Under the pieces are notes generated by a model that was given only the letters and a program-made list of their open reading frames with translations, searched no databases and was not told where the DNA came from. DNA of 64,000 nt, taken from NCBI RefSeq assembly GCF_010993965.1, contig NZ_WIXM01000001.1, forward strand, positions 186,001-250,000, read 5' to 3'. The translations under genes were made by a program, and so were the position numbers. This document shows positions 2,510 through 18,034 of the stretch, piece by piece (the stretch's first letter is position 1; each line of letters starts with the position of its first letter). Source of the stretch: Gracilibacillus sp. YIM 98692. GTDB lineage: Bacteria; Bacillota; Bacilli; Bacillales; Amphibacillaceae.

Positions 2510-2897
2510 AGTTTTATTTACCCTATCATCATTAGTATCATGTTCCGCTGAAGTGATTCGACGTTGTTTACACGATAAAGTTGATAGATAAGCGCAACTA
2601 CGCTCTGACTTCGCCATAGGCTCGTCAATCGCCGAGTTTTATTTACCCTATCATCATTAGTATCGTGTTCCGCTGAAGTGATTCGACGTTGTTTACACGA
2701 TAAAGTTGATAGATAAGCGCAACTACGGCTCTGACTTCGCCATAGGCTCGTCAATCGCCGAGTTTTCTTTACCCTATCATCATTAGTATCGTGTTCCGCT
2801 GAAGTGATTCGACGTTGTTTACACGATAAAGTTGATAGATAAGCGCAACTACGGCTCTGACTTCGCCATAGGCTCGTCAATCGCCGAGTTTTCTTTA
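2510..2897. repeat. Three tandem copies of a 126-bp repeat
   Basis: The landmark CCCTATCATC recurs at 2521, 2646 and 2772, giving units of 125, 126 and about 126 bp that are nearly identical. Copy 1 lacks one G. The last unit ends on the stop codon of the dehydrogenase gene (2895-2897), and the first ends about 25 bp before the glmS start. 126 bp equals 42 codons, so a chance reading frame stays open through the array, but I do not regard it as a gene. The array forms the whole dehydrogenase-glmS spacer inside an operon. Confidence 0.9.
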
Positions 2898-4253
2898 CAA
2901 TGCAATGGATTCTTGGTGTTTTTTATTTACTTTTGATGTTGTACCCAGCTTGTGAATGTGTGGTTGATGGTAATCCTTAAAGGCATTTCGTGTATCGACA
3001 ATTGGAATATCTAGATTAGCAAGCTCATCATAATCGAAATCACTATGATTCGTCACTAACACCATGCAATCATACTGCTTCAACTCTTCTGCGCTGTATG
3101 AGATAGAATCTACGATAAAGCCATCATCATCAATGAAGCTATGAGCATGTGGATCATAATAGTCCACGTTCGCCCCGTGTTCTTTATACAATTCATACAG
3201 ATATAACCCTGGAGATTCACGCAAATCGCTAATATTAGGTTTATATGCCATGCCTAAAATAAGTATCTTAGAGCTATTGATAGATTTACCGTAGATATTC
3301 AATACTTGGGATGTTTTGCCAACGACAACATCAGGCATATTATTATTAATTGATTGAGCTAAATCGATGAATTTACTATAGAAACGAAAACCTTTTGCTT
3401 TCCATGATAGATACATAGGGTCAAGTGGAATGCAGTGGCCGCCGATTCCTGGGCCAGGTTGGAACTTCATAAAACCAAAAGGCTTCGTTGCTGCCGCATC
3501 AATCACCTCCCACACATCTATGTCCATTCGCTCACACATTAAAGCCATTTCGTTCACGAATGCGATATTGATACTACGGAACGTGTTTTCTAACAGCTTG
3601 GACATCTCAGCCACTTTCGGGGAGGATACTGGTACAACATTTTCGATATAATTGCTATAAAGCAGCTTACCAACTTTATTGCAGTTTTCTGTTATTCCGC
3701 CCATTACTTTAGGTACATTATTCGTATGGAATGACTCATTACCTGGGTCTACTCTCTCTGGTGAGTAGCAAAGGAAAATATCATTTCCAGGTTCATAACC
3801 CATTCGATGGAATTCTTTTAGGATTAACTCATCGGTTGTTCCTGGATAAGTGGTACTTTCTAAGGTAACAAGCATTCCTTTCTTCATATACGGTTTAATA
3901 CTTTCTATTACACTGGTAATGTATGAAGTATCTGGATCCTGATTTTCACTAAGTGGAGTTGGAACGCAAATGCTTATAGCATCTAGTTCCTTCACCATTT
4001 CATACTCATTAGTTGGAAAGAAACGGTTGGTATCTAAGCATTCTTGCAAATCTTGATCTGAAATATCATTAATGTAAGACTTCCCATTCGCTAAGGAGTG
4101 AATTTTTTCTTCATTTAAATCTATTCCACATACGGTAAATCCTGCTTTCACCATCTCAACAGCAAGTGGGAGCCCGACATATCCCATACCTATTACCCCA
4201 ATGCTAGCTTTCTTCATCTCAATCTTTTGACTTAACTGTTCATAAAAACCCAT
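2895..4253 (-). CDS. UDP-GlcNAc 6-dehydrogenase-like (WbpA/WecC family)
   Basis: NAD-dependent nucleotide-sugar dehydrogenase of 452 residues. It has an N-terminal Rossmann motif GVIGMGYVGLPLA (about residues 19-31), a central dimerisation domain and a C-terminal UDP-binding domain. The active-site segment reads GPGIGGHCIPLDP with the catalytic Cys. This pattern fits the UDP-GlcNAc/UDP-ManNAc dehydrogenases (WbpA type) better than UDP-glucose dehydrogenases, which have GFGGSCFPKD. The likely product is UDP-GlcNAc uronic acid. The gene lies just downstream of the pseudo-receiver gene and upstream of glmS-glmU, which would supply its substrate. Substrate assignment rests on the motif and the neighbours. 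It could also oxidise UDP-ManNAc. Confidence 0.8.
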   Translation of the reverse strand: MGFYEQLSQKIEMKKASIGVIGMGYVGLPLAVEMVKAGFTVCGIDLNEEKIHSLANGKSYINDISDQDLQECLDTNRFFPTNEYEMVKELDAISICVPTPLSENQDPDTSYITSVIESIKPYMKKGMLVTLESTTYPGTTDELILKEFHRMGYEPGNDIFLCYSPERVDPGNESFHTNNVPKVMGGITENCNKVGKLLYSNYIENVVPVSSPKVAEMSKLLENTFRSINIAFVNEMALMCERMDIDVWEVIDAAATKPFGFMKFQPGPGIGGHCIPLDPMYLSWKAKGFRFYSKFIDLAQSINNNMPDVVVGKTSQVLNIYGKSINSSKILILGMAYKPNISDLRESPGLYLYELYKEHGANVDYYDPHAHSFIDDDGFIVDSISYSAEELKQYDCMVLVTNHSDFDYDELANLDIPIVDTRNAFKDYHQPHIHKLGTTSKVNKKHQESIAL

Positions 4254-4290: not shown

Positions 4291-5109
4291 TTATCCCATT
4301 ACTTTAACGAGTCGTTTGATACGTGCTTCGAGTTCAATGAGTGAAAATGACTTCGTAATGTATTCTGCTACCCCAAATTCAAACGTTCGCTTAATATCTT
4401 GTTCCATCTGCTTATTGGTTAACACGATTATTTCGGAGTGACGATTCGATTGTTCGTCAATCTTTTTTAGTTCATTAATAAATTGGTATCCAGCTATAGC
4501 TGACAGATTAATTTCCGTAATGACGAGATCCGGCAGAAGTTTCTTATATTGATCTAGACCATCCTTTCCGTTTTTTGCAGTATGGACAATATATTCTTTA
4601 CTCTCCAAGTAATTTTTCAATAGCTGGCGGACGCTAACATCTGGATCGACAATAAGGATGGAGCGAGTTTCTGCTGTCTTTTTGGTTATATTTTCAAACA
4701 CTTTAATTTCTTTGGCGTCGCTATTGCTTTCTGTCATTTCCTTCATCATATTCATAAGCATTTGTTCAGCATCATTACTGTTTTCAGGAAAGCTGCCCAC
4801 TAATAGGAATCCTGTCAATCGATTGTGTTGTTCTAAGAATTCTTTTACATACAATGCGTAAAAGTGAGTATAAGCTAGATTACAATCATCTAATAATAGA
4901 CCTAGAATACCCAATTGTGCATCATAGTTGATTTGAAAAGCAGTATCTGGCTCTTCTTTTTCTAAATAGGCTTTTAACTTACTTAATTTTGATTGATCGA
5001 GGTCTGCATGTGCTACAATCACGCCACATGTTAACTGACTTGCTTGATAATAATGAAGAAAGTGATGAAAAGATTTTAAAATATTAGAATCTATTGGTGC
5101 TTTACTCAT
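4291..5109 (-). CDS. Pseudo-receiver protein of the EPS operon
   Basis: A 272-residue cytoplasmic protein. Residues 1-145 form an N-terminal domain I do not recognise. Residues about 150-272 are a CheY-like receiver domain with no output domain after it. The acidic pocket (VDPD, D155/D157), T231 and K253 are present. The phospho-acceptor position reads LVITEINL, with Glu199 where Asp is expected. Asp-to-Glu can mimic phosphorylation, so the domain may be locked on or act as a protein-binding module. It sits between the GT2 synthase and the nucleotide-sugar dehydrogenase, with gaps of under 40 bp, which suggests a role in controlling the synthase. That role is inferred from position only. Confidence 0.7.
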   Translation of the reverse strand: MSKAPIDSNILKSFHHFLHYYQASQLTCGVIVAHADLDQSKLSKLKAYLEKEEPDTAFQINYDAQLGILGLLLDDCNLAYTHFYALYVKEFLEQHNRLTGFLLVGSFPENSNDAEQMLMNMMKEMTESNSDAKEIKVFENITKKTAETRSILIVDPDVSVRQLLKNYLESKEYIVHTAKNGKDGLDQYKKLLPDLVITEINLSAIAGYQFINELKKIDEQSNRHSEIIVLTNKQMEQDIKRTFEFGVAEYITKSFSLIELEARIKRLVKVMG

Positions 5110-5136: not shown

Positions 5137-6564
5137 TTAAGCAGATTGTTTATTTTCATTACTGTCATTCCAACTAGTCCTTGTCATGGTTCCCCAAGTA
5201 TTGTTCTTGCGCATAAAATCAATGTGACCAAGGAACCTCCACAAAATACCAAGCTGTCGGTAACCAAAGAACATTAGAACGGTGTATAAAACCATTTTGA
5301 AATAGTCTCTAATTCTTGGATATCGTTGGAATGCCATTTCTTCGATTAATAAAGACCCTATCCCAAGCAATGTTCCGTACAATACATTAATAAGCATAAA
5401 TGTTGCTATTATTTCCCATCCTGACATATCTAACAAGCTATAACCTACCAGTGCTAGAAAACCAGTTATTCTAAAATAAGGACTTAATGTTTCAAAAATA
5501 ATATTATATGGGATGGTCAGCCAACCCATGATTTTGTATCTGGGACGCATGAACATATACATCCCTTCTTCCAGCATGTTTTTTAAATTCCCTCTGCCCC
5601 ATCGCTTCCGTTGACTACCGAGGATCTTGAAAGTATCAGGTGCTTGCGTCCAACAGACAGCATCCGGACAAAAGTCCACTTTATAAGGAAGTTTGTTATC
5701 TAACATATAACGATGTAGTTTGATAATAATATTCATATCCTCGCCCGGATAACCTCCGCGGTATCCTCCAACCTTAATAATATATTCTTTCTTAAATACA
5801 CCGAATGCACCAGATACAATAATCAATCCATTAATGTCACTCCAGCCTATTCTCCCCCCAAGGAATGCCTTTATATATTCAACAGTTTGCATCATTGGCA
5901 ACAGTTTCTTGGGCAGGTTCACTTTCTTAACCATCCCGTCAGAAATCTCACAGCCATTTGCAATTCGAACATTACCACCAATGGCTACGTATTCCTCAGG
6001 ATTTTCCATGTATTTCCTAGCAATTCGAATAAGTGCATCACTCTCTAACAGAGAATCGGCATCAATGGAAGAAACAAGCGGATAATGGGATAAGTTAATT
6101 CCGGCATTTAAAGCATCCGCTTTCCCTCCATTTTCTTTATCTACTAAATACAGATTAGGAAATTCCGGATTGTAGTAAATCCCCTTCACTTTTGCTGTGG
6201 GTATGGTATCTTTTATAAAAGTAGGCTTGTAATATTTCAGTTGAAATTCGTCAATTAAAACCCCCACCGTATCGTCGCTGGAACCATCATTGACCACAAT
6301 GACTTCGTGAGTTGGATAATGTAAAGCTAACAAAGAACGAACATTTTCTTTAACCGTCAATTCCTCGTTAAAAGCTGGAACAAGTATGGAAATGGGTGGT
6401 ACATGTTTAGAGCCTGATAAAGGTTCATACTTGGAATAAAAGGTTTCCTTTATAATTCCAGTGATTCTCTTGAAAGAGAACATAATAATCCCAAAATAAA
6501 TCGTGTTAATGGTAATAACGTAATACATAGCAAAAATTCCGTAAGCTAGTAATATCTCTCTCAA
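5137..6564 (-). CDS. Processive GT2 polysaccharide synthase
   Basis: Membrane glycosyltransferase of family 2, 475 residues, resembling PgaC/IcaA, cellulose and hyaluronan synthases. An N-terminal membrane segment (about 5-32) is followed by the GT-A domain. Visible motifs are VNDGSSDD (91-98), the DAD motif (168-170), the general-base motif GED (274-276) and QRKRW (318-322), the Q-x-x-R-W signature of processive enzymes. Several C-terminal membrane segments follow (about 360-450). It is probably the catalytic core that polymerises and exports the polymer. Neighbouring enzymes for UDP-GlcNAc and its uronic acid point to a GlcNAc-containing product. The exact linkage cannot be told from sequence. 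Confidence 0.85.
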   Translation of the reverse strand: MREILLAYGIFAMYYVITINTIYFGIIMFSFKRITGIIKETFYSKYEPLSGSKHVPPISILVPAFNEELTVKENVRSLLALHYPTHEVIVVNDGSSDDTVGVLIDEFQLKYYKPTFIKDTIPTAKVKGIYYNPEFPNLYLVDKENGGKADALNAGINLSHYPLVSSIDADSLLESDALIRIARKYMENPEEYVAIGGNVRIANGCEISDGMVKKVNLPKKLLPMMQTVEYIKAFLGGRIGWSDINGLIIVSGAFGVFKKEYIIKVGGYRGGYPGEDMNIIIKLHRYMLDNKLPYKVDFCPDAVCWTQAPDTFKILGSQRKRWGRGNLKNMLEEGMYMFMRPRYKIMGWLTIPYNIIFETLSPYFRITGFLALVGYSLLDMSGWEIIATFMLINVLYGTLLGIGSLLIEEMAFQRYPRIRDYFKMVLYTVLMFFGYRQLGILWRFLGHIDFMRKNNTWGTMTRTSWNDSNENKQSA

Positions 6565-6580: not shown

Positions 6581-7750
6581 CTATGTAGCTTTGATTAAAT
6601 AATCATGGCTTTTTCCAAAATACTTTTGATAGATATATACTTTTTGGTTATATTCCGTGATATCAGCTAAGTTTGAAAAACGATGAATGGATTGTTTTAA
6701 TTCTTCTTCCATAAACTCGTTAGCTACTTCTCTTCCACGATCCCCATCGTTACCAGAAGCTAATTCACAGAGAATTTCAAAACCTCTAGTCCCTAGCTGC
6801 ATAAGGCTTTTAGCACTAGATCGGGAAACCATCCAATTAAGATCCTGCACCCCCTCTCTTAAGTATTCAGCGTATTGTTTTAGTTCTGAATTGCCGATCC
6901 ACTCAGCAAAAAGCTGACGAACCTCCCAATCAGGAAACTGCAAATAGGCTTGAACATCTCTCTTGGTAAGAGCCATTGAGGATGTAAGAAGTTTAGCAGT
7001 AAGAATTCTTATTTCCTTATCCTTCGAATGTAAAAAGGAATGAATATCTTCTGATAAATGGTAATCAACCTGATCTTGCAAACCGATTAGCCCAACTTTC
7101 ACAAGTTCCAATTGGCTTTCATACAGAAAATCAACATACACGGACCTTAAATCTAAATACGATTCTTTTGATATATCTGCAATTAAGTGACTGTTTTGTT
7201 TTCCATTCTCCACAAGGTATTGAATGAGACTTTTTATTTCATTTACATCTTTAGATGTTTGTGCAATGGACCGTGCAATGATATAAATAGAAGCTTCAAA
7301 CTTTTTTTGATGCAACATGGACAATAATTCAGATGTGGATTCACTATCTCTTAATATGCCTAAGTGATAAGCTGCATCTATACGAATAATCGACCATGGA
7401 CTTTTCAAGCGTTTTCTGTTGTATGAAATTAATCCAATGTCTTCACACAATGTAAGAAGTTTCTGTCGGTGAATTCCCTCCAGACGATCAACCCATTGCA
7501 ACAAAGTTTTTTGTAATACCTTTTTTTCAAAAATCCGCAGTGGTTTAGCAGGTGGCCTCAAACGGTCTGCATTATCTAATTGAAGCTGCAAGTAATCAAA
7601 ATAGCTTCGAAATTCGGACAAACACTTTTTTTCTTTTTTCTCTAACCTTTTTTTATTCACTTTCATACTTAACGTAAGTGTTGCTAGGATGATCATAAGA
7701 ACGAGTAAAATACCTATCACCCAGTAAGCAGCTTGCAAATTTATAAACAA
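6581..7750 (-). CDS. HEAT-repeat membrane-anchored protein
   Basis: A 389-residue protein with one N-terminal transmembrane helix (about 9-30), a basic Lys/Glu-rich stretch and then an all-alpha domain. Segments such as IRIDAAYHLGIL, IRILTAKLLT and WEVRQLFAEWIG resemble HEAT or Armadillo repeats. It lies 16 bp upstream of the GT2 gene and 16 bp downstream of the glycosidase gene, so it is co-transcribed. Repeat scaffolds of this kind usually bind proteins. Here it could be a cytoplasmic partner of the synthase or of the pseudo-receiver. No catalytic motif was seen, and I know of no named homologue. Confidence 0.6.
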   Translation of the reverse strand: MFINLQAAYWVIGILLVLMIILATLTLSMKVNKKRLEKKEKKCLSEFRSYFDYLQLQLDNADRLRPPAKPLRIFEKKVLQKTLLQWVDRLEGIHRQKLLTLCEDIGLISYNRKRLKSPWSIIRIDAAYHLGILRDSESTSELLSMLHQKKFEASIYIIARSIAQTSKDVNEIKSLIQYLVENGKQNSHLIADISKESYLDLRSVYVDFLYESQLELVKVGLIGLQDQVDYHLSEDIHSFLHSKDKEIRILTAKLLTSSMALTKRDVQAYLQFPDWEVRQLFAEWIGNSELKQYAEYLREGVQDLNWMVSRSSAKSLMQLGTRGFEILCELASGNDGDRGREVANEFMEEELKQSIHRFSNLADITEYNQKVYIYQKYFGKSHDYLIKAT

Positions 7751-7766: not shown

Positions 7767-9914
7767 TTAATCAACACTCTTGAAAGCATCTTGCATCATG
7801 TAATAACTTTGTTTTAGCTGTTCATCATATTCGACCTCCTGCCAGTTATCCCAGGTATAAAGGGGAAAATCAGTGACAGAAATAGGTTCAGATTCATTTT
7901 CTAGTCCTTCGACAGTCTGTGAACGATGATCAACGATCCATGGGATGAAGCGAATTCCTTCTATTTCCTCTCTTGGCATTTCTGTATCTCCCCTTTCTTT
8001 AGTGCCGTAACTCACTACCTGTTTGGAGCTAGGATCTGCAAACCCTAGTAATGACCAAGGAATTCTCATTTCTATTATTTCCCCTTGAACTGCCCAATCA
8101 GCTTGGGAATCTGTAGAGGAGGAAGCTCGTTCCATCTGGCCTGCAGGCACTTCTTCAAATGGTAATTCTACAGTCGAATCAGGAAACTCAAGTTTCCGGC
8201 TAACTGCTAATTTCCATGGGTGCATGGATTCAGTCTTATCACTTTTTGGTGCATTGACATACATACGTTGATGAAAATCATAGCTTGGAGCAATTAGCAC
8301 TTCACTTTCATTTTCCTTACCCAATCGAACGACCATCTCTAATCCTTCATCGAGTGTTTTATCTTGTAAGAAGTCCGGGTTTTTGATACCTCCTGAAAGT
8401 GTATGGATGCCTAGATAGAACGTATTTTCACCTGGATCAAAGTCTTTAGGTATGCGGCCAGCTACATAGATAAAACCTTCATCATTCGTTACCTTAAAAT
8501 CAGCAAGCGAAGGCGATAATTTTTGGATTTCCTCTTCTTCTAACTTGTTCCAATCTTCCAAACTCCCATCTATCGTTAAATCATTATGTTTGTGGGGATA
8601 CATACCCAACAGACCATAGGACATTTCCGGAGATAAATTGTTATACCAGAAAGGACGCCGGCTTGGATCTTCAAGTGCCATCGTATTCCATGTTCTCTTA
8701 AACCATTCATCCTGCCATGTGAAAACGACAGCTCCTGCATAATTTTCTTGGTAAATATGTTGAAGCATATCAGCATTATGTTTCCCTTGCTCTGATTCCG
8801 TGTGTCCCCCTTGGTTTCGATCGAGTGGTCCGATATGTGCATTTCCTCGGGATGATGGGACCCCAAATTCTGTGATCATAATTGGCATTTCTTTGTGATA
8901 ATTTTTAAGTTCACGGAGATACCCTTTATATGTATCTATCTGCCCCTTATCATTTTTTACATCATCATACTTGTCGGTATATCTTAAAAAATCCGGATAG
9001 TATGGATAAGCATGAAAAGAAGCAAAATATCCCGCCTCTCCTTTCGTCCTTTGAATATTAGTAGCGTCTACACTGACGATATCCTCCATTTGTAAAGGTT
9101 CATCTGGATGTTCCAGAGGGTCTGTTGTCACCCAATTCGTAAAGGTAATCGGATGCTGCCAGCCTTGTTCTTCTTCCTTTTTAGCTAAATGATTCATTAA
9201 CTCTGCCAACCAGCTTTCAAATGGCGAAGCTTCTCTTGTCGTCTTAAAAACATTCCCTTGGAAAAGGGGATCATCGAGGTGAACTTTATTTGTATTCACT
9301 ACCATTTCCGGATCCCATTCTGTCCCAATATGCCAAGCAACTAAGTATGAGCTTGCATCTGCTGTGTATTCACCGCTTGCTTTTCCAGGTTCAGCAGGAA
9401 GTGTTATCTCCCCGCTAACTGCTCCTATTGCATGGGATATTTCTTCTTTAAATTGTTTTGTCACTTCAGGTGACCAAGCATCATTCTTCTCACTTAGCAA
9501 GTTGACTGGTGACCATATCCCCTGCATAAAATAGAGAGGATCATCGATATTCTTTTGGTTGTATTCCACTAAGGCCTGATAGAAGACAGGATTATGAATC
9601 GTATATATACGAATCGTATTGGCTCCCATTTCTTGAATCATGTTAAACCAACGAAGATAATCCTCTTTCTTAATTGGCTGCTGACCCGGGAAATATCCAG
9701 GTAAAGTAGCTCCTATATTGACACCTTTCACCAAAAAGGGAGACCAGCTTTCATTTTTGTAAATTTCTAATTGATCTTCTTTCGTTCTGAATTTAATTTT
9801 TGTTCCATCCGCTAATTCTTTACTTTCTGCTTCGTTTGTTGTGTTTAATAATGCATATCCCCCCAAAATGGCCATAAAAAGTAAGATAAGCAGCCCTTTA
9901 CCCTTCCATTTCAT
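7767..9914 (-). CDS. Membrane-anchored TIM-barrel glycosidase with C-terminal domain
   Basis: A 715-residue exported protein with an N-terminal signal anchor (about 7-24). A clan GH-A-like TIM barrel follows (about 50-430). The putative acid/base is Glu199 in IGTEW and the putative nucleophile is Glu349 in ITEFG. Residues about 440-715 form a separate beta-rich domain starting near DLTIDGSLEDW, similar in style to CBM9/DOMON-like carbohydrate-binding domains. I chose ATG 9914 because an AGGAGG site precedes it. The frame is open for 36 more codons, but no better start lies there. It is the first gene of the synthase operon, so it may trim or release the growing polymer, as hydrolases in cellulose or PNAG operons do. 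Substrate unknown. Confidence 0.75.
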   Translation of the reverse strand: MKWKGKGLLILLFMAILGGYALLNTTNEAESKELADGTKIKFRTKEDQLEIYKNESWSPFLVKGVNIGATLPGYFPGQQPIKKEDYLRWFNMIQEMGANTIRIYTIHNPVFYQALVEYNQKNIDDPLYFMQGIWSPVNLLSEKNDAWSPEVTKQFKEEISHAIGAVSGEITLPAEPGKASGEYTADASSYLVAWHIGTEWDPEMVVNTNKVHLDDPLFQGNVFKTTREASPFESWLAELMNHLAKKEEEQGWQHPITFTNWVTTDPLEHPDEPLQMEDIVSVDATNIQRTKGEAGYFASFHAYPYYPDFLRYTDKYDDVKNDKGQIDTYKGYLRELKNYHKEMPIMITEFGVPSSRGNAHIGPLDRNQGGHTESEQGKHNADMLQHIYQENYAGAVVFTWQDEWFKRTWNTMALEDPSRRPFWYNNLSPEMSYGLLGMYPHKHNDLTIDGSLEDWNKLEEEEIQKLSPSLADFKVTNDEGFIYVAGRIPKDFDPGENTFYLGIHTLSGGIKNPDFLQDKTLDEGLEMVVRLGKENESEVLIAPSYDFHQRMYVNAPKSDKTESMHPWKLAVSRKLEFPDSTVELPFEEVPAGQMERASSSTDSQADWAVQGEIIEMRIPWSLLGFADPSSKQVVSYGTKERGDTEMPREEIEGIRFIPWIVDHRSQTVEGLENESEPISVTDFPLYTWDNWQEVEYDEQLKQSYYMMQDAFKSVD

Positions 9915-10201
9915 CTTTTCATCTCTCCTCCTCTCATTTTTTCTTTGAGGAAAAACATTTTCTTTCTTGAAATTTTTTGTCGAAACAGTTACTTTAAAAA
10001 TATGATTTGTCCTCCACGTCATTTACGTTAACATGGGGGATTCCAATGTTCATCGAAAACTATATTTCGGAAGAACGAATATTTATCTTCGGTACCACAG
10101 TATTTTTTCGTCACGAATAGACATCTAATCCGAAGTTTCGTTATCGTAATCCAATAGAAAAAGCGGTATTATGCGCTTTTTAAAGTGTTTTCGTGTTGAC
10201 T

Positions 10202-10217
10202 TTGCGGTCTCCCGCAA
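10202..10217. promoter_or_regulatory. ComA-box-like dyad
   Basis: The sequence TTGCGG-TCTC-CCGCAA is a perfect 6-4-6 inverted repeat. It matches the known B. subtilis ComA recognition element (TTGCGG-N4-CCGCAA). A ComA-type regulator is encoded 3.7 kb away at 13881-14543. The site is about 100 bp upstream of the ATG at 10318 and about 290 bp upstream of the synthase operon start. By eye I saw no second full match in the window. Confidence 0.65.
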
Positions 10218-10218
10218 A

Positions 10219-10244
10219 ATCCCTAGGTAGACACAACTAGGGAT
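10219..10244. promoter_or_regulatory. Second dyad next to the ComA box
   Basis: Two 8-bp arms, ATCCCTAG and CTAGGGAT, are separated by 10 bp and begin 1 bp after the ComA-like box. This could be an operator for a second regulator. The binding protein is unknown. Confidence 0.4.
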
Positions 10245-10317
10245 ACTTACTTTTTTACTTAAGCAGATAGAGATATCATCGAAATCTATCCATATTTAAA
10301 TCTTGGGAGGTCTATAA

Positions 10318-12006
10318 ATGAATCAAAAATTATTGTTGTTCATGCTGACATTTACCGTCTTCACATTTCTAACAGGGTTCTCTACTTCTAGTGAATTTAA
10401 GAGAGCTATGTGGGTTGAACACTTAGATATTAGCGAAAGTAGTGAAGCACTGTTAAAGAAAACAAAAGAAAATGAGTACAACGTCTTGTATGTAAAAACG
10501 GATCCAGATAAAAGTTTAGAAAGCTATTCTGATTTCATCCGAAAAGCTAATGAATTAGGAATTGAAATTCATGCTTTGGGAGGTGACCCATCCTGGGCAC
10601 TTGACGAGAACCAACAACAAATTCTCGGCTTTGTTGAGGGGGTACAAGATTACAACGAAAGTGTTGCTGAAGAGGAACAATTCACTGGAATTCATTTAAA
10701 AATACAGCCACAGTATCTCCCTGAGTGGTATGAAGATCAATCATCCGTAGTGAAACAATGGAAAAGTAATCTGACTGCTGCACTAGATGCTTTACCTGAA
10801 AATACTGCGCTGGAAACAAGTAGTTCCATGCCTTTTTGGTTAGACGAAGTGCATACACCTGGTGAACCAGATATGCCATTTCATTCATGGTTGATTCGAC
10901 AATTTGATCATACAACTATTCTTGCTTACCGTGATACTTTGGAAGGTCCCAATGGTATGGTGAACCTAACAAAAAATGAGTTCGAAGCTGCCGATCAATA
11001 CAATAAACAAATTGTCATTGGCGTATCATTAGCGGATACAGGGCAAGACCATACCACTTTTTTCGAAGAAGGCATTGCAGATATGAACATGCATCTGAAA
11101 CTGGTAGATAAGCACCTAGGTGAGTATGATTCCTATATAGGAACAGCAGTCGATGACTTTTCCAGTTGGGAGGCACAAGAAGAACAGCCTCCAACAGAGC
11201 AGGCAAAGGAAAAAAAATATCGAGGCACATACATTTGGGAAGCTGACACCCTTATCAATGAAAAAGAAAAAATCATTCAGTTTGCGAAAGAAAAAAATAT
11301 TAACCTATTATATACACGCTTAGATCTTACACAGCCTTTCAGTGCTTATACTGATTTTGTAGAAGAGGCCAATCAAGCAGGTATTGAAATCCATGCGATG
11401 GGAGGACATCCATCTTGGGCCCTTAAGGAAGAAGAAGCAAGGATGCTCAAACTAGTGGATTATGTTAAAGAGTATAACAATACAGTCGATGAGAACCAGC
11501 AGTTTACAGGAATTCACCTTGATGTGGAGCCATATGTAACACCTTCCTGGGCTGAAAATGAACAGGAAGTATTATCTCAATGGATGAATAATATTGAATT
11601 ATTCGTGAAAGAAACCAAACGAGAATCTAATTTAGAAGCAAGCATGGACTTAGCGATGTGGTTTGATGATACGAATACTCCTGGTCATCCTGACACCCCA
11701 TTTTATCAATGGGTCATCAACCAAATGGACCATACTTCCATAATGGCGTTTCGTGATTTCGCCAAAGGCTCAGGCGGTATCATTGATATGGCTCAAAATG
11801 AAATCGATTATGCGGAAAGCATCGATAAAAATATGATCATCTCTGTAGAAATAAAAGAAAACAAGCATAATCCATATATTTCTTTTCATGAAGAAGGGGC
11901 AGCTAAGATGGAAGAACAGTTAGACATTGTGGATGAAGAGCTAAGTTCTAATACCGCATATAACGGTTATACCGTTCATGCCTACCGTTATTGGAAAAAT
12001 CATTAG
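10318..12006 (+). CDS. Secreted protein with two tandem TIM-barrel-like domains
   Basis: A 562-residue protein with an N-terminal signal peptide (about 1-25) and two homologous domains (about 27-287 and 303-562) joined by a charged linker. Each domain has the landmark HAxGGxPSWAL. Domain 2 has GIHLDVEP with Asp402 and Glu404, a D-x-E arrangement like that of several TIM-barrel glycosidases. Domain 1 reads GIHLKIQP at the same place (Lys128, Gln130), so its putative catalytic acids are lost. Domain 1 may therefore only bind or regulate. Nucleotides 11175-12006 are nearly identical to the end of the next gene. GGGAGG precedes ATG 10318. The ComA-like box upstream and the divergent synthase operon suggest it acts on the exopolysaccharide. 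Family not recognised. Confidence 0.75.
   Translation: MNQKLLLFMLTFTVFTFLTGFSTSSEFKRAMWVEHLDISESSEALLKKTKENEYNVLYVKTDPDKSLESYSDFIRKANELGIEIHALGGDPSWALDENQQQILGFVEGVQDYNESVAEEEQFTGIHLKIQPQYLPEWYEDQSSVVKQWKSNLTAALDALPENTALETSSSMPFWLDEVHTPGEPDMPFHSWLIRQFDHTTILAYRDTLEGPNGMVNLTKNEFEAADQYNKQIVIGVSLADTGQDHTTFFEEGIADMNMHLKLVDKHLGEYDSYIGTAVDDFSSWEAQEEQPPTEQAKEKKYRGTYIWEADTLINEKEKIIQFAKEKNINLLYTRLDLTQPFSAYTDFVEEANQAGIEIHAMGGHPSWALKEEEARMLKLVDYVKEYNNTVDENQQFTGIHLDVEPYVTPSWAENEQEVLSQWMNNIELFVKETKRESNLEASMDLAMWFDDTNTPGHPDTPFYQWVINQMDHTSIMAFRDFAKGSGGIIDMAQNEIDYAESIDKNMIISVEIKENKHNPYISFHEEGAAKMEEQLDIVDEELSSNTAYNGYTVHAYRYWKNH
11175..12006 (+). repeat. 832-bp direct repeat, copy 1
   Basis: This segment matches 12707-13538 with no length change and only scattered substitutions. 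Both copies begin in the linker (QEEQPPTEQAKEKK) and end exactly at the stop codon. The sequence before and after is unrelated. It indicates recent duplication or gene conversion of the catalytic domain. Confidence 0.95.
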
Positions 12007-12095: not shown

Positions 12096-13538
12096 ATGAT
12101 GGAAAAAATAATCAAAGCTTTAAAATATGCATCTACTGGATTAGTTTTTACTGGTGCACTTTATATTTCACCTCAAATTGCACAAGCAGATGGATTTTCG
12201 GATGTCGATACAAGTGATTGGGCATATGAACACATTATGAAAATGGAACAATTAAACATTATTAATGGATATCCCGACGGTACTTTTAGAGGGAATAACT
12301 CTATTCGTCGTGAGCATGTAGCAGTGATGATGGATCGTGCTTTAGACTTGCCGATTCATCAATCTTACATACCGTTTGAGGATGTATCAGACTCCAATGA
12401 TTACCTTAATGCGATTAAGGCCGTTCAACAAGCTGGTATTTTTACCGGTGACAGAGGAAATTTTATGCCGAAAGCAAATTTGACAAGAGCACAAATGGCG
12501 AAGGTTATTGTAGAAGCTTTTAATCTGCCGATCAAGAAGGGGCACGCTTTTTCTGATGTAGCCGATTCTAATTGGGCAAAAGATTATATTTCTACGATTG
12601 CTTACTATGATATTTCTACAGGAAGCAAGGGCAATTATATGCCTGATAATGACGTTACACGCCGACAGTTTGCTACTCTCATCGATAGAGTTTTCAATTT
12701 GCAGTTACAAGAAGAACAGCCTCCAACAGAGCAGGCAAAGGAAAAAAAATATCGAGGCACATACATTTGGGAAGCTGAAACACTTATCAATGAAAAAGAA
12801 AAAATCATTCAGTTTGCGAAAGAAGAAAATATTAACCTATTATATACACGCTTAGATCTTACACAGCCTTTCAGTGCTTATTCTGATTTTGTGGCAGAGG
12901 CCAATCAAGCTGGTATTGAAATCCATGCGATGGGAGGACATCCATCTTGGGCCCTTAAGGAAGAAGAAGCAAGGATGCTCAAACTAGTGGATTATGTTAA
13001 AGAGTATAACAATACAGTCGATAAGAACCAGCAGTTTACGGGGATTCATCTTGATGTGGAGCCATATGTAACACCTTCCTGGGCTGAAAATGAACAGGAA
13101 GTATTATCTCAATGGATGAATAATATTGAATTATTCGTGAAAGAAACCAAACGAGAATCTAATTTAGAAGCAAGCATGGACTTAGCGATGTGGTTTGATG
13201 ATACGAAGACTCCTGGGCATCCTGACACCCCATTTTATCAATGGGTCATCAACCAAATGGACCATACGTCTATAATGGCTTTTCGTGATCAAGCGAAAGG
13301 CTCAGGCGGTATCATTGATATGGCTCAAAATGAAATCGATTATGCAGAAAGCACCGATAAAAATATGATCATCTCCGTAGAAATAAAAGAAAGTAAAAAT
13401 AATCCACATATTTCCTTCCACGAAGAAGGTGCAGCAGTGATGGAAGAACAATTAGACATTGTAGATGAAGAGCTTAGTTCTAATGCCGCATACAACGGTT
13501 ATATAGTTCATGCCTATCGTTATTGGAAAAATCATTAG
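12096..13538 (+). CDS. SLH-domain surface protein with TIM-barrel-like domain
   Basis: A 480-residue protein with a signal peptide ending near AQA (about residue 31) and three S-layer-homology domains (about 33-205; for example FSDVDTSDWAYEHI and YPDGTFRGNN). The charged linker follows, then the same domain as the second half of the upstream protein. The D-x-E pair is Asp320/Glu322. SLH domains bind pyruvylated secondary cell-wall polymers, so this is the cell-anchored counterpart of the secreted upstream protein. ATG 12096 has an AAGGAG site 7 nt upstream. The 90-bp gap from the upstream gene suggests co-transcription. An SLH anchor appears to have been joined to a copy of the hydrolase domain. 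Substrate unknown, probably the polymer of the divergent operon. Confidence 0.85.
   Translation: MMEKIIKALKYASTGLVFTGALYISPQIAQADGFSDVDTSDWAYEHIMKMEQLNIINGYPDGTFRGNNSIRREHVAVMMDRALDLPIHQSYIPFEDVSDSNDYLNAIKAVQQAGIFTGDRGNFMPKANLTRAQMAKVIVEAFNLPIKKGHAFSDVADSNWAKDYISTIAYYDISTGSKGNYMPDNDVTRRQFATLIDRVFNLQLQEEQPPTEQAKEKKYRGTYIWEAETLINEKEKIIQFAKEENINLLYTRLDLTQPFSAYSDFVAEANQAGIEIHAMGGHPSWALKEEEARMLKLVDYVKEYNNTVDKNQQFTGIHLDVEPYVTPSWAENEQEVLSQWMNNIELFVKETKRESNLEASMDLAMWFDDTKTPGHPDTPFYQWVINQMDHTSIMAFRDQAKGSGGIIDMAQNEIDYAESTDKNMIISVEIKESKNNPHISFHEEGAAVMEEQLDIVDEELSSNAAYNGYIVHAYRYWKNH
12707..13538 (+). repeat. 832-bp direct repeat, copy 2
   Basis: Partner of 11175-12006 at a constant offset of 1532 bp. 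It covers linker and TIM-barrel-like domain and ends at the stop codon. Confidence 0.95.
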
Positions 13539-13834: not shown

Positions 13835-13879
13835 AAAAAAGCAGCCGAGGGGAGATAGTTTTCTCCTCTGGCTGCTTTT
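13835..13879. terminator. Bidirectional terminator between SLH gene and comA
   Basis: A strong stem (AAAAGCAGCC...GGGGAGA with TCTCCTC...GGCTGCTTTT) with T-runs on both sides lies between convergent genes, 45 bp or less from the comA stop. It can end transcripts from both strands. Confidence 0.9.
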
Positions 13880-13880
13880 G

Positions 13881-14543
13881 TTATTTTATTTCTTCTGTAA
13901 TGATACCTAGTTGTTTTGATTTCAATACAGCTTCTGCTCTTGTTTTTACTCGAAGCTTTTTAAAAATTTCTGTCAAATGGTATTCAATCGTTCGAGGGCT
14001 CTTAAAAAAGGTCTGTGCAATTTCTTTATTACTCTTCCCTTTCGCTACTTCCATTAGAATTTCTTGTTCTTTTGAATTGATCGATACTTCACTTGCTTCT
14101 TCCAAATCTTTTTTTTCCGATTCATGAACACGCACTTCCGTTTTACGTAATTGCTCAAACAAAGAAACCGGAATAATGGCTTTTCCTTCTACTCCATACC
14201 GAATAGCTTGAATGAGTTCTTCTCTTGAAGCTGTTTTACTAATAAAACCGCTCACCCCAGCTTCCACTAATGTATTAAAATAAGGACCAACTTCATGGCC
14301 TGTATAAATTAAGATAGGTGCCGTCTTCCCCATGGAACGAACCTGCTTGGTTAACTCAATCCCATTCATTCCATCCATACGTAAATCAAACAGCATAATG
14401 GTAAAGTCCTCATCTTTTAATATATCAATCGCTTTGCCTGGACTATCAGCAATCGTTACTTGCATATCTTCCTCTTTCTCAATGATTAATTTAGAACCCT
14501 CTCCTATCACTGGATGATCATCCACTAACATAATTGAAATCAA
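13881..14543 (-). CDS. comA: ComA-type response regulator (LuxR family)
   Basis: A 220-residue response regulator with an N-terminal receiver (acidic DD at 8-9, phospho-acceptor Asp53 in LFDLRMDG) and a C-terminal LuxR-type helix-turn-helix (about 150-215, with GKSNKEIAQ and PRTIEYHL). I chose TTG 14543 because GGGAGG lies 7 nt before it. The longer frame starts at GTG 14558, inside that binding site. The comP stop overlaps this region, so the two are translationally coupled. As last gene of comQXPA it should be phosphorylated by ComP and bind ComA boxes. A perfect candidate site lies at 10202. Orthology rests on gene order and domain layout. Confidence 0.85.
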   Translation of the reverse strand: MISIMLVDDHPVIGEGSKLIIEKEEDMQVTIADSPGKAIDILKDEDFTIMLFDLRMDGMNGIELTKQVRSMGKTAPILIYTGHEVGPYFNTLVEAGVSGFISKTASREELIQAIRYGVEGKAIIPVSLFEQLRKTEVRVHESEKKDLEEASEVSINSKEQEILMEVAKGKSNKEIAQTFFKSPRTIEYHLTEIFKKLRVKTRAEAVLKSKQLGIITEEIK

Positions 14544-14557
14544 TACTATTCCTCCCA

Positions 14558-16882
14558 CTACATAACTTCAGAATAATTTTTTATTTCTAAATCTGTTTGA
14601 AGTAAAATGGCCACTTCTACGCCTGCATTTTCTGAAGAAAATACCTCCATACTGCCTTGAATACTATTGACGCGTTGCCTAATACCTACAAGTCCCATGT
14701 TTTGACCCGAACTGTATGGTGTTTTCGGCGGAAAACCTACCCCGTTATCTTTATAAGATAAAAATACAGCATGACCTTCACTTTTTACCTCTATAACAAT
14801 GTGGCTTGCTTCGGAATGCTTGGAGGCATTATTTAGTAATTCTTGAACCACACGGTAAATCACCAGAGCTTGATCATCTCCAAGATTCGCCTTAAATTCT
14901 TGTGAAATAAATTCTATATCAAAACTTTCGCGAGAACGATATTGCTGAATTAAATAGGATAATGCTTCTACAATTCCTGTTTCCTTTAAAAAAGGTGGCC
15001 TTAATAACGTGCATGTTTCACGAATTTGCTCCACAACTCCTAGTAAACCTTTTTGCAATTCTATTAATGGTTCTCTTATGGATTTAGACAACTGATCGTT
15101 TTCCAATAAATCCTCCACTTTTCTATACCATACCAATTGTTCTTGTAAGGCAGAATCATGCAAGTCAGAAGATAACCTTGTCCGTTCTTTTTCCGAAAGT
15201 CTAAATAATAATCGCAACATCCAGGAAGGCATGGCCTGATCATTATCCAACGATTGTTTCATATCTTCTGTTACACCTTCAATCAATTGGAAGTTTTCAT
15301 ACACAATACTCGCATAATGAACAAGCATCTTTAGCCAACTCTGTTCGTCTTGGTTAAATGGTGTATAATTCGCCTTTTGCTGGACCCATAGAACATGAAT
15401 AGAATCATGCTGTTCACTAATGATATAGCACAATCCACCTTCAATAGAGAATTGAGAACCAATCGATAACATAGAGTCATAATATTTGATATACATCTCG
15501 ATTAATTCTTTTGGATATACTTCATCTCCAGCAGATAAGCTTGTACTTTCTTGCTCTTTGTTAAAACTTACAAGAGAGACATTTCTGATCGGAAGTACCT
15601 CTCTTACCTCTTTTATTAACCTTTTATCTAATTCCTCTCTCTTTACTATTTTAGCTATATCATAAGAGAAATGATCGAGATTAAATTGTTTCTGAAATAA
15701 TCGATGCCGAACATTTAATTTCTCTTCTAAATAAAAAATGATAATAAGTGATCCATAGGTTAATATGGTAAGCCTAGCCCATTCTAAATAGGATAAATTG
15801 GTAAAGAACAACACTAACCCAATAATGATACCTGTGAGTATTAGTGAGATCAAAGCATAGTACCTCAGACGGCTATTAATAAAATCAATGTCAAAAACTT
15901 GATTCATAATAACTAAGTAAAGAAAGAACACTGGTAGAAAAATAAGACATGCAGCCGATAAAGAAGCAGGAATCAATTCAACACCAAATATGATATTAGG
16001 TAATGCAGTTAAAAAGATAAACGGGAAAAAGGATACCACAATACCAAAAATTGCATTTTGTAAAATAGGTCTTTGAACCGTTTTTCGGAACTTCATATAA
16101 TGATAAATAAGGACAACAAAGCTCAGTAAAAATTCCAGAGAAAATAAGAGTAATTGTGCATTTCTAATAGAAGCATACAAATTACCAATATAAACAAAGA
16201 TCGATAACATACCGAGTAAAACCACGAATACATTTACCGCATAAATCATAACCAAATACTTCTTTTTCATGAATTGGATCTGGTAATTAAAAAAATATCG
16301 ATAATGAAAATGAATAAAAAAGGAAGGGACCATCATCATCGATAAACTATTAATAATACGCGCAAACGAATCTGTCCGAGCTGAAGCCCCTGCGCTCAAA
16401 TAACCGAGTCCAACAGCAACAAAAAAGGCCACTAAAATGAAAACCACTTTATCCTCTCGTTTTTTCCAATAAATATAAACGGAGAACCCAATAAGCACTA
16501 AAAATACGAGCATTGGCAATAACGTATGATATAAAAGGGTATTATAATTCCGTGGTGCTTGCACCTCGTATTCCAGTTGATAACCATTACGCAGCACTGT
16601 CATTTGATCAAGGTGGCCAACCACTCCGTACTGCTTAATAAAATGAAAGGAATCAGGGGTTTTTCCATTAATTTCTGTAATGATATCGCCAGTCTGAATC
16701 TTTCTTTGGGCTGCCCAGCCTATCGAGTCTACCTTTGTGATTTCCCATTGCCCATAATTGTTTTCTTTTACATCAAGTCCTACATACGTTTCAGTCATGG
16801 TGACATAAGCCATATATAAACCGATTAGCATGATAATGGCTAAAAAAAAACAAACCACTTCTTCATGTAAATCCCCTTTCAT
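14558..16882 (-). CDS. comP: ComP-type membrane sensor histidine kinase
   Basis: A 774-residue sensor, close to the length of B. subtilis ComP. It has an N-terminal membrane helix, a PDZ-like extracytoplasmic segment (about 45-105), some eight further membrane helices (about 115-390), a HisKA_3 domain with His575 in LHDSALQEQ, and an HATPase_c domain (N-box near 682-690, KDNGVGF, GLVGIRQR). It should sense the ComX pheromone and phosphorylate ComA. The in-frame ATG at 16882 has no ribosome binding site. A second ATG at 16866 has AAAGGGG at good spacing but is out of frame because of a run of nine T (coding strand, 16860-16852). One added T would give a typical MKKWF start. The gene may thus be slipped or phase-variable. 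Confidence 0.85.
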   Translation of the reverse strand: MKGDLHEEVVCFFLAIIMLIGLYMAYVTMTETYVGLDVKENNYGQWEITKVDSIGWAAQRKIQTGDIITEINGKTPDSFHFIKQYGVVGHLDQMTVLRNGYQLEYEVQAPRNYNTLLYHTLLPMLVFLVLIGFSVYIYWKKREDKVVFILVAFFVAVGLGYLSAGASARTDSFARIINSLSMMMVPSFFIHFHYRYFFNYQIQFMKKKYLVMIYAVNVFVVLLGMLSIFVYIGNLYASIRNAQLLLFSLEFLLSFVVLIYHYMKFRKTVQRPILQNAIFGIVVSFFPFIFLTALPNIIFGVELIPASLSAACLIFLPVFFLYLVIMNQVFDIDFINSRLRYYALISLILTGIIIGLVLFFTNLSYLEWARLTILTYGSLIIIFYLEEKLNVRHRLFQKQFNLDHFSYDIAKIVKREELDKRLIKEVREVLPIRNVSLVSFNKEQESTSLSAGDEVYPKELIEMYIKYYDSMLSIGSQFSIEGGLCYIISEQHDSIHVLWVQQKANYTPFNQDEQSWLKMLVHYASIVYENFQLIEGVTEDMKQSLDNDQAMPSWMLRLLFRLSEKERTRLSSDLHDSALQEQLVWYRKVEDLLENDQLSKSIREPLIELQKGLLGVVEQIRETCTLLRPPFLKETGIVEALSYLIQQYRSRESFDIEFISQEFKANLGDDQALVIYRVVQELLNNASKHSEASHIVIEVKSEGHAVFLSYKDNGVGFPPKTPYSSGQNMGLVGIRQRVNSIQGSMEVFSSENAGVEVAILLQTDLEIKNYSEVM

Positions 16883-16935: not shown

Positions 16936-17112
16936 TTACTGCCAGTAACAATTCTTTACATTAACACGCTGATCATTATTATCTTTAGTTAATACATCCA
17001 TTACTGCTGCTTTTTCCATTTCGGAAACACCTGCTAATTCAAGCTTGCCCTCTTTTAATTTTTCGATAAGGTCGGGATTTTTTACTAATTTTTCAACTAT
17101 ATTCTGTAACAT
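16936..17112 (-). CDS. comX: ComX pheromone precursor
   Basis: A 58-residue peptide between comQ and comP. It starts at ATG 17112 with GAGGAAAACAT upstream, and it reads MLQNIVEKLVKNP at the N-terminus, like known ComX precursors. It ends in CYWQ with Trp57 one residue from the C-terminus. ComX peptides are cleaved from the C-terminal part and isoprenylated by ComQ on a conserved Trp. The position, size, N-terminal pattern and single terminal Trp all fit. The mature peptide is probably the last 5-10 residues. The Cys two residues before the Trp is noteworthy. Downstream ComP should be its receptor. Confidence 0.9.
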   Translation of the reverse strand: MLQNIVEKLVKNPDLIEKLKEGKLELAGVSEMEKAAVMDVLTKDNNDQRVNVKNCYWQ

Positions 17113-17140: not shown

Positions 17141-18034
17141 TTATATTTTTTCTATATATTCCCGCATGTCATGCTTCCATTCTTGTCTAACTTGCAGGTC
17201 TAACATTCTATCTAATGCTTTTCTTTGGTAAAAACGCTTTAGTACTTTGACATATGACACAACTGGAGAGTGATGAATCCATCGAAATAAGACCTCTTCT
17301 CTTTTGACCATAAACGCTTTGTCTACCTTTCCAGCATAATAATCTCGGATCCAATCCGCTTCTTGATCCCTCTCCTTCGTAAGTAACAGGATAGGAAGTG
17401 TCCATTGCTTATGCAGTAAATCATTCTTGACATCCAATCGGAGCAATCCGTCGATATCATTTGCTAATTGTGCTGCCATTCCGAAGCTTTCCGAGTAATC
17501 CTTAATAATTTCCTTTTGTGTGGAACGTTGGAGTATTGCTCCAATAAGCGTTGCACAAACCATTAGGGACCCTGACTTTTCTTTCATCATGCATAAAAAT
17601 TCTTTTTCGGTAGCACAGGAACTCTGAAGATCTTGGTGTTGCCCTTTTACTGCTCGCAAAACCTGTTCATCTACATACTGAAGTGCTTCCAACTTTAAGT
17701 CGTCGTCAAAACGAGATTGTCTGAGTACAAGCTTACTTAACATTAAAAAACCCGTTGATATATTCATGGAAGTAGAAAAAGAATTCATAGACCAAGGTTT
17801 TTCCTTGTCATCTTGATCCTGTAAATCATCCAGTATATCCAAGGCCAACATTAAAAACTCTACTGCTGCTGAAGCATGAACAATGCCTTTGCATTTTTCC
17901 TCATCGTCCATATGATAATGGAACTGAGTTAACGAGGAGAAAGAAAATCCTTCTTGCCTCTTATATAATATGTAGGAAATAGCATGCTCTTGGAGGTCAT
18001 TATCATCCAAATGTGTATTCACCACCTTAAGCAT
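17141..18034 (-). CDS. comQ: ComQ-type isoprenyl transferase
   Basis: A 297-residue polyprenyl-synthase-like protein. The first aspartate-rich motif DDLQD is at 69-73 (within LDILDDLQDQDD), and a second, weaker one lies near QLANDIDG. ComQ attaches a farnesyl or geranyl group to the ComX Trp. The gene order comQ-comX-comP-comA on one strand, with 28 bp between comQ and comX, is that of the known quorum-sensing locus. ATG 18034 has no clear ribosome binding site. An in-frame TTG at 18010 lies about 9 nt after AAGGTGGTG and may be the true start, but the longer form aligns better in my memory with B. subtilis ComQ. Confidence 0.88.
   Translation of the reverse strand: MLKVVNTHLDDNDLQEHAISYILYKRQEGFSFSSLTQFHYHMDDEEKCKGIVHASAAVEFLMLALDILDDLQDQDDKEKPWSMNSFSTSMNISTGFLMLSKLVLRQSRFDDDLKLEALQYVDEQVLRAVKGQHQDLQSSCATEKEFLCMMKEKSGSLMVCATLIGAILQRSTQKEIIKDYSESFGMAAQLANDIDGLLRLDVKNDLLHKQWTLPILLLTKERDQEADWIRDYYAGKVDKAFMVKREEVLFRWIHHSPVVSYVKVLKRFYQRKALDRMLDLQVRQEWKHDMREYIEKI

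Follow-up and report, generated by a model that had tools for sequence, protein, structure and literature searches.

A comQXPA quorum-sensing locus adjoining a probable surface-polymer operon in Gracilibacillus and related genomes, with a candidate ComA operator between divergent genes

The stretch of DNA analyzed here (the window) comprises 64,000 nucleotides from the genome of Gracilibacillus sp. YIM 98692 (G000; 4.37 Mb in 69 contigs, 98.77% complete). Its leftmost genes of interest lie on the minus strand. The first gene of what we call the polymer operon encodes p751 (7767-9914), a protein with a hydrophobic N-terminus and without a match in Pfam, NCBIfam or, by profile search, the PDB; the frame is open to 10022, and comparison with shorter relatives indicates that the start is probably at 9914. 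The genes that follow encode a HEAT-repeat protein (6581-7750), a family 2 glycosyltransferase that is presumably the polymer synthase (5137-6564), a 272-aa protein with a C-terminal receiver domain (4291-5109), a nucleotide-sugar dehydrogenase (2895-4253) and GlmS, the glutamine-fructose-6-phosphate transaminase (652-2484). The glycosyltransferase resembles both the PgaC/IcaA and the XrtG-associated enzymes and falls under both curated cut-offs. The dehydrogenase scores over the TIGR03026 cut-off, and its next-best models are those of UDP-ManNAc dehydrogenase, under their cut-offs. The N-terminal part of the 272-aa protein has no assignment, and structure prediction from the one sequence gave a pLDDT of 33. 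This set of genes (GlmS, dehydrogenase, receiver, glycosyltransferase, HEAT and p751) fits polysaccharide synthesis, and the leftward operon probably makes a surface polymer. Like PgaC/IcaA poly-GlcNAc operons, it has a family 2 synthase, here with GlmS and nucleotide-sugar dehydrogenase genes nearby, but the synthase is far under the PgaC/IcaA cut-off (140.2 of 422.3 bits) and, PgaC/IcaA operons are not known to have HEAT, p751 or receiver companions.

Divergent from the polymer operon on the plus strand is the gene for a 562-aa protein (10318-12006), followed by that of an SLH-domain protein (12096-13538). Beyond these lies, on the minus strand, comA (LuxR-type response regulator, 13881-14558), comP (histidine kinase sensor, 14558-16882), comX (pheromone precursor with a penultimate Trp, 16936-17112) and comQ (isoprenyl transferase of the polyprenyl synthetase family, 17141-18034). 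These four adjacent genes of the expected families on one strand identify the locus as comQXPA. The ComA protein, given in the preliminary description as 220 residues, is 225 residues long when read from its GTG start. Such loci are best known from B. subtilis, in which ComA drives surfactin, rap and other genes, with sites at srfA, rapA, rapC, pel, lutP and others. Between the SLH gene and comA, the segment 13559-13800 contains a 12-nt imperfect inverted repeat and is perhaps a dispersed repeat, and a 10-nt perfect inverted repeat (AAAAGCAGCC/GGCTGCTTTT, 13837-13879) just past comA is terminator-like.

The distribution of these genes was determined in two genome sets. Of 159 genomes of the family, four have the 562-aa gene (E <= 1e-60); just these four also have the HEAT gene (E <= 1e-20), and all of them are among the eight with ComX. 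An order sample of 397 genomes, which did not include G002, G012 and G027, had the 562-aa gene in 12. Pooling the family and order scans gave 15 genomes of three families, the present one included. In all 15 (the window plus 14 fetched loci) the polymer operon adjoins the 562-aa gene, and comAPXQ lies on the far side of that gene in 14, the remaining locus (G338) stopping at a contig edge. Each of the 14 linked ComX proteins has the penultimate Trp. Note that the genomes with this block are related, so that the number of independent events is less than 15. The four adjacent genes on one strand are also the arrangement of comQXPA-like loci outside the B. subtilis clade, as described in the available part of a census (PMC4008528), in which we found no text on neighborhood, flanking or polysaccharide genes. 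Our literature search found no report of comQXPA linked to this operon, which is no proof of absence.

Between the polymer operon and the 562-aa gene lies the sequence TTGCGGTCTCCCGCAA (TTGCGG-TCTC-CCGCAA, 10202-10217), which agrees with the ComA inverted repeat at 12 of 12 positions. The exact match and the divergent placing put forward in the preliminary description were both confirmed; the comQXPA locus, which it had called complete and 4 kb away, is intact and 3.7 kb from the box. The exact box TTGCGG-N4-CCGCAA occurs only here in the 4.37 Mb scanned (expectation from base composition, 0.0009 per window and 0.06 per genome), and in 1000 shuffled versions of the 295-nt intergenic sequence a 12/12 score never arose. 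With up to two mismatches the window has one site versus 1.17 expected. Six sites in the genome, the box counted in, are within one mismatch of the strict consensus versus one in the control; of the other five, three overlap a long reading frame. A genome-wide ComA regulon defined by the strict consensus was rejected, as near matches were no commoner than in the control (54 sites with up to two mismatches versus 52 in the reversed control). Most B. subtilis ComA targets have an accompanying direct repeat, TTGCGG-N5-TTGCGG; the best such match in the intergenic region was 9/12, a score reached by 92 of 1000 shuffles.

The preliminary description had taken absence of the box from relatives that keep both loci to speak against its proposal, and such absence is what was found: none of the 14 relatives that hold the polymer operon and the 562-aa gene has the exact box between the two (comQXPA was seen adjoining in 13; in G338 the contig ends first). 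The genomes of G002, G012 and G027 have no exact box anywhere (one-mismatch sites 1, 4 and 1 versus 5, 4 and 2 in the control), nor have four genomes with unlinked comQXPA (8 sites versus 13 in the control). What is kept at the box position, in 6 of the 14 relatives, is a TTGCG half-site without the other half. In families f1 and f35 all seven genomes have TTGCG, G000 included, and only G000 has the right half; nothing comparable was seen aligned at this position in the third family. The best fit at the box position has a 6-nt spacer in G002, G012, G427 and G338, a spacing not accepted by B. subtilis ComA in vitro according to the available text of PMC4797271, and G027 gives 10/12 against the strict consensus at n=4. 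It is thus quite conceivable, if less so than the reading we prefer, that the box is not a functional ComA site and that a TTGCG stretch kept in the two families for another purpose became a perfect dyad by chance, in a window where perfect 6-4-6 dyads, whatever their sequence, number 19. The rarity of an exact 12/12 match argues the other way, as do the second inverted repeats of the relaxed half-site TTKCGG that two other lineages have on the 562-aa side, perfect with n=5 in G290 and G232 (n=4 in G000) and matching at 11/12 in G027; in the other 11 block genomes they were no better than shuffles. The occurrence of such repeats in a few lineages allows the box to be read as one of few lineage-specific extra sites, which is weaker evidence than conservation would be. 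We judge the chances somewhat better than even that the box is a functional ComA site, in which case it may be a second, accessory one towards the 562-aa gene.

A second element of the same divergent region, 110 bp from the box, is conserved. This candidate operator (10053-10092) consists of half-sites a (TCGAAA, 10053-10058), b (TTTCGG, 10065-10070), c (ACGAAT, 10075-10080) and d (CTTCGG, 10087-10092). The layout TCGAAA-N6-nTTCGG-N4-nCGAAn-N5/6-TTKCGG-like is present in all 15 block genomes of the three families, and the core TCGAAAA-N6-TTCGGA-N4-CGAA (10053-10079 in the window), with its fixed a-b-c spacing, was found in 15 of 15 aligned blocks. When an operator profile was run over the loci, sites above 12 bits outside the blocks were found only before the copies of the 562-aa gene that G232 and G290 carry unlinked to the block (27-29 bits versus 49-66 for the block copies). 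A search pattern, TCGAAAA-N6-TTCGG-N5-CGAA, which was written from the block copies and relaxed at one base so as to include the two unlinked copies, had 17 exact matches in 25 genomes, these being one per block (15, by construction) plus the two unlinked copies. No exact match occurs in the 10 genomes that lack the block, among them four with unlinked comQXPA, and two of the 10 have a one-mismatch site. With up to two mismatches the 25 genomes gave 86 sites versus 118 in the reversed control, and therefore no wider operator regulon is visible. In both G290 and G232 the copy lies upstream of the unlinked 562-aa gene with half-site a facing that gene, as half-site a faces the polymer operon in the blocks. 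The element is thus probably read in trans as a signal rather than being a mere trace of synteny.

The half-sites were compared over the 17 copies. Half-site a reads TTTCGA in all of them, 6 nt beyond b, and b and c, which follow [TCG]TTCGG and [AT]TTCG[TCG], form an inverted repeat with a 4-nt spacer in all 17. Half-site b is within one base of TTKCGG and c departs from it at one or two positions in every copy. Position 3 is T in both b and c in 17 of 17, and strict TTGCGG at both halves was not found. Half-site d is TTTCGG in seven blocks, TTGCGG in three and one base off in five of the 15, and is TAACGG in the two unlinked copies; it lies 5 nt beyond c in 11 of 15 blocks and 6 nt in four, with the better of N5 and N6 taken, this choice and the T at position 3 both having been allowed after the data were seen. 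Against strict TTGCGG-N4-CCGCAA the b/c repeat scores 8/12 in G002 and 9/12 in G012; scores at least as high arose in 398 and 95 of 1000 shuffles, respectively, and the likeness of the operator to the strict ComA consensus, taken alone, is not significant. A TGTTAA on the minus strand (10028-10033) is a possible -35 element of the polymer operon. TGTTA lies 19 nt from a in 12 of 15 blocks and 20 nt in two, with TGATA in G339, and is 20 nt from a in both unlinked copies. A promoter scan of 9900-10400 detected no promoter-like site on the minus strand and two weak hits on the plus strand, versus a shuffle mean of 1.1.

How far this element agrees with ComA recognition can be judged from published data. 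The available text of PMC4797271 states that n=4 is the spacing of inverted repeats preferred by B. subtilis ComA and that n=5 is tolerated, that further half-sites lie downstream of the inverted repeat in ComA promoters, the last of them with a consensus T at position 3, and that cooperative binding to several half-sites compensates for degenerate sites. The same text reports that a G-to-T change at position 3 of the second half of an isolated inverted repeat abolished binding of B. subtilis ComA in vitro up to 9.6 uM (PMC4797271), which implies that the ComA of the block differs or that cooperativity among several half-sites compensates. The srfA region, as read here from one published primer in the accessible part of PMC4578258 and reverse-complemented, is CCGCAT-N6-TTTCAC-N5-TTTCGG; by this primer 6 nt separate the second and third half-sites, the fourth is TTTCGG, and the distance from the third half-site to TTGACA is 11 nt versus 19-20 nt from a to TGTTAR here. 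The DNA-contact residues of ComA are given as Arg183, Tyr187 and Thr190 in the part of PMC3246441 available. Using a B. subtilis ComA sequence checked against PDB 2krf, we found the equivalents of all three residues in 14 of 14 block-linked ComAs, whereas the Tyr187 position is Arg or Gln in four of four unlinked ComAs. In a small tree, B. subtilis ComA clusters with the four unlinked proteins (support 0.989), separately from those of the blocks; the support for the placement of G339 is 0.499. The unlinked ComAs (loci L111, L112, L113 and L114) may read a different DNA site.

From the directly observed block and operator, their association and the retained DNA-contact residues, we infer that ComA would be the binder, that binding would activate and that each half-site would have a role of its own. 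The polymer operon, the divergent 562-aa gene and comQXPA would be one co-inherited quorum-response module. As ComX builds up, ComP would phosphorylate ComA, and ComA~P would bind at 10053-10092 and from there control the polymer operon and the 562-aa gene together. Half-sites b and c would form a canonical-type inverted repeat with a 4-nt spacer at the center, and the third element recognized would be a on the side of the polymer operon and d on that of the 562-aa gene. This would give two overlapping tripartite ComA sites with one inverted repeat in common, by which both genes would be switched on together. The half-site TTKCGG would be the B. subtilis TTGCGG with T permitted at position 3. 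The box at 10202-10217 would be an additional ComA site peculiar to this lineage, and would strengthen the promoter of the 562-aa gene in the present species. In the unlinked copies d is TAACGG and the next long frame on the d side is co-directional with the gene, which fits a role of d in serving the 562-aa side, an argument drawn from two related cases. Taken as a whole, this explanation (quorum module, ComA~P at shared tripartite sites, box as an extra site) is the one we favor, with moderate confidence. The preliminary description had proposed quorum control of a switch between making and remodeling the polymer. Quorum control of these genes is supported, by inference from the synteny, the conserved element of ComA-like layout and the contact residues; no support was found for a switch that opposes synthesis and remodeling, and one nearly symmetric element common to both sides fits co-regulation better.

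The operator could instead be read by another regulator (LuxR/NarL-type, Spo0A or another factor), with comQXPA linked to the block for some other reason, such as joint transfer, and acting elsewhere. The insignificant likeness to the strict consensus by shuffling and the T at position 3, which should weaken ComA binding in the inverted repeat, would agree with this, as would TTTGTCGAAAC on the polymer-operon side (9976-9986), identical in G002 and G012 and altered in G027, which resembles a Spo0A box. We nevertheless consider such a regulator rather unlikely, given that exact operators occur in the 15 block genomes and in none of the 10 others, that position 3 of d is T in some genomes and G in others and that the ComA Tyr is kept in the linked proteins and in none of the unlinked ones. 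Moreover, the sole further regulator-like protein of the block, the 272-aa protein, has no DNA-binding domain by Pfam, and its relatives in two of the 15 blocks (G364 and G407; L104:16691-17155 and L105:16291-16755) end before the receiver domain.

The second dyad said to follow the box at once is indeed there (ATCCCTAG-N10-CTAGGGAT, 10219-10226 and 10237-10244). Short hairpins of differing sequence fold at its place in G002, G012 and G027; the other three TTGCG-bearing relatives were inspected at this place by eye only. An RNA role for the neighboring dyads, as paired hairpins in the 562-aa mRNA leader, is very improbable, since the good folding of the G000 stretch (z -4.89 for 65 nt and -2.35 for 122 nt) is not shared by the same stretch of G002, G012 and G027 (z -0.03, +0.50 and -0.67, no better than shuffles) and an Rfam search of window positions 1-24000 had no match at the gathering score.

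The ComA-operator reading may be set beside the B. subtilis system, which the present one resembles in the adjacent comQ-X-P-A genes on one strand, the penultimate Trp of ComX, the ComA contact residues, and sites composed of TTGCGG-type half-sites with a 4-nt-spaced inverted repeat and further half-sites. It differs in its proposed targets, a polysaccharide operon and a divergent 562-aa gene adjoining comQXPA, and in an operator that is nearly symmetric between divergent genes and has half-sites mostly with T at position 3. Whether there exists a family-spanning module, in which comQXPA is dedicated to the adjoining polymer operon and one nearly symmetric operator, with overlapping tripartite TTKCGG sites around a common inverted repeat, drives the divergent polymer-synthesis and hydrolase-like genes, an unlinked paralog being preceded by the same operator and lineages adding second sites such as the box, seems to us evenly balanced on present sequence comparisons. 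If it does, comQXPA would serve, in members of three other families, to gate an extracellular polymer from an adjoining site, and half-sites that drift, appear and disappear over 15 genomes would amount to a natural experiment in DNA recognition by ComA and in the building of quorum regulons. The operator sequence is ready for testing, and under the proposal two genomes would have one unlinked target each.

As to the proteins of the rightward genes, the two halves of the 562-aa protein look related by eye, and its profile had a sole, distant match in the PDB, 10yv, a putative glycoside hydrolase. A remodeling role of the 562-aa and SLH proteins would be a guess. The SLH gene was seen at this place in three of the 15 blocks (G338 being cut), namely here and in G290 and G232 (43% identity to the present one). 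The C-terminal part of the SLH protein shares 92% identity with the C-terminal half of its 562-aa neighbor, which suggests recent duplication or conversion. Beyond glmS, downstream of the polymer operon, loci L012, L010 and L011 have open frames of 349-359 aa that are paralogous (35% identical) to the N-terminal half of the 562-aa protein.
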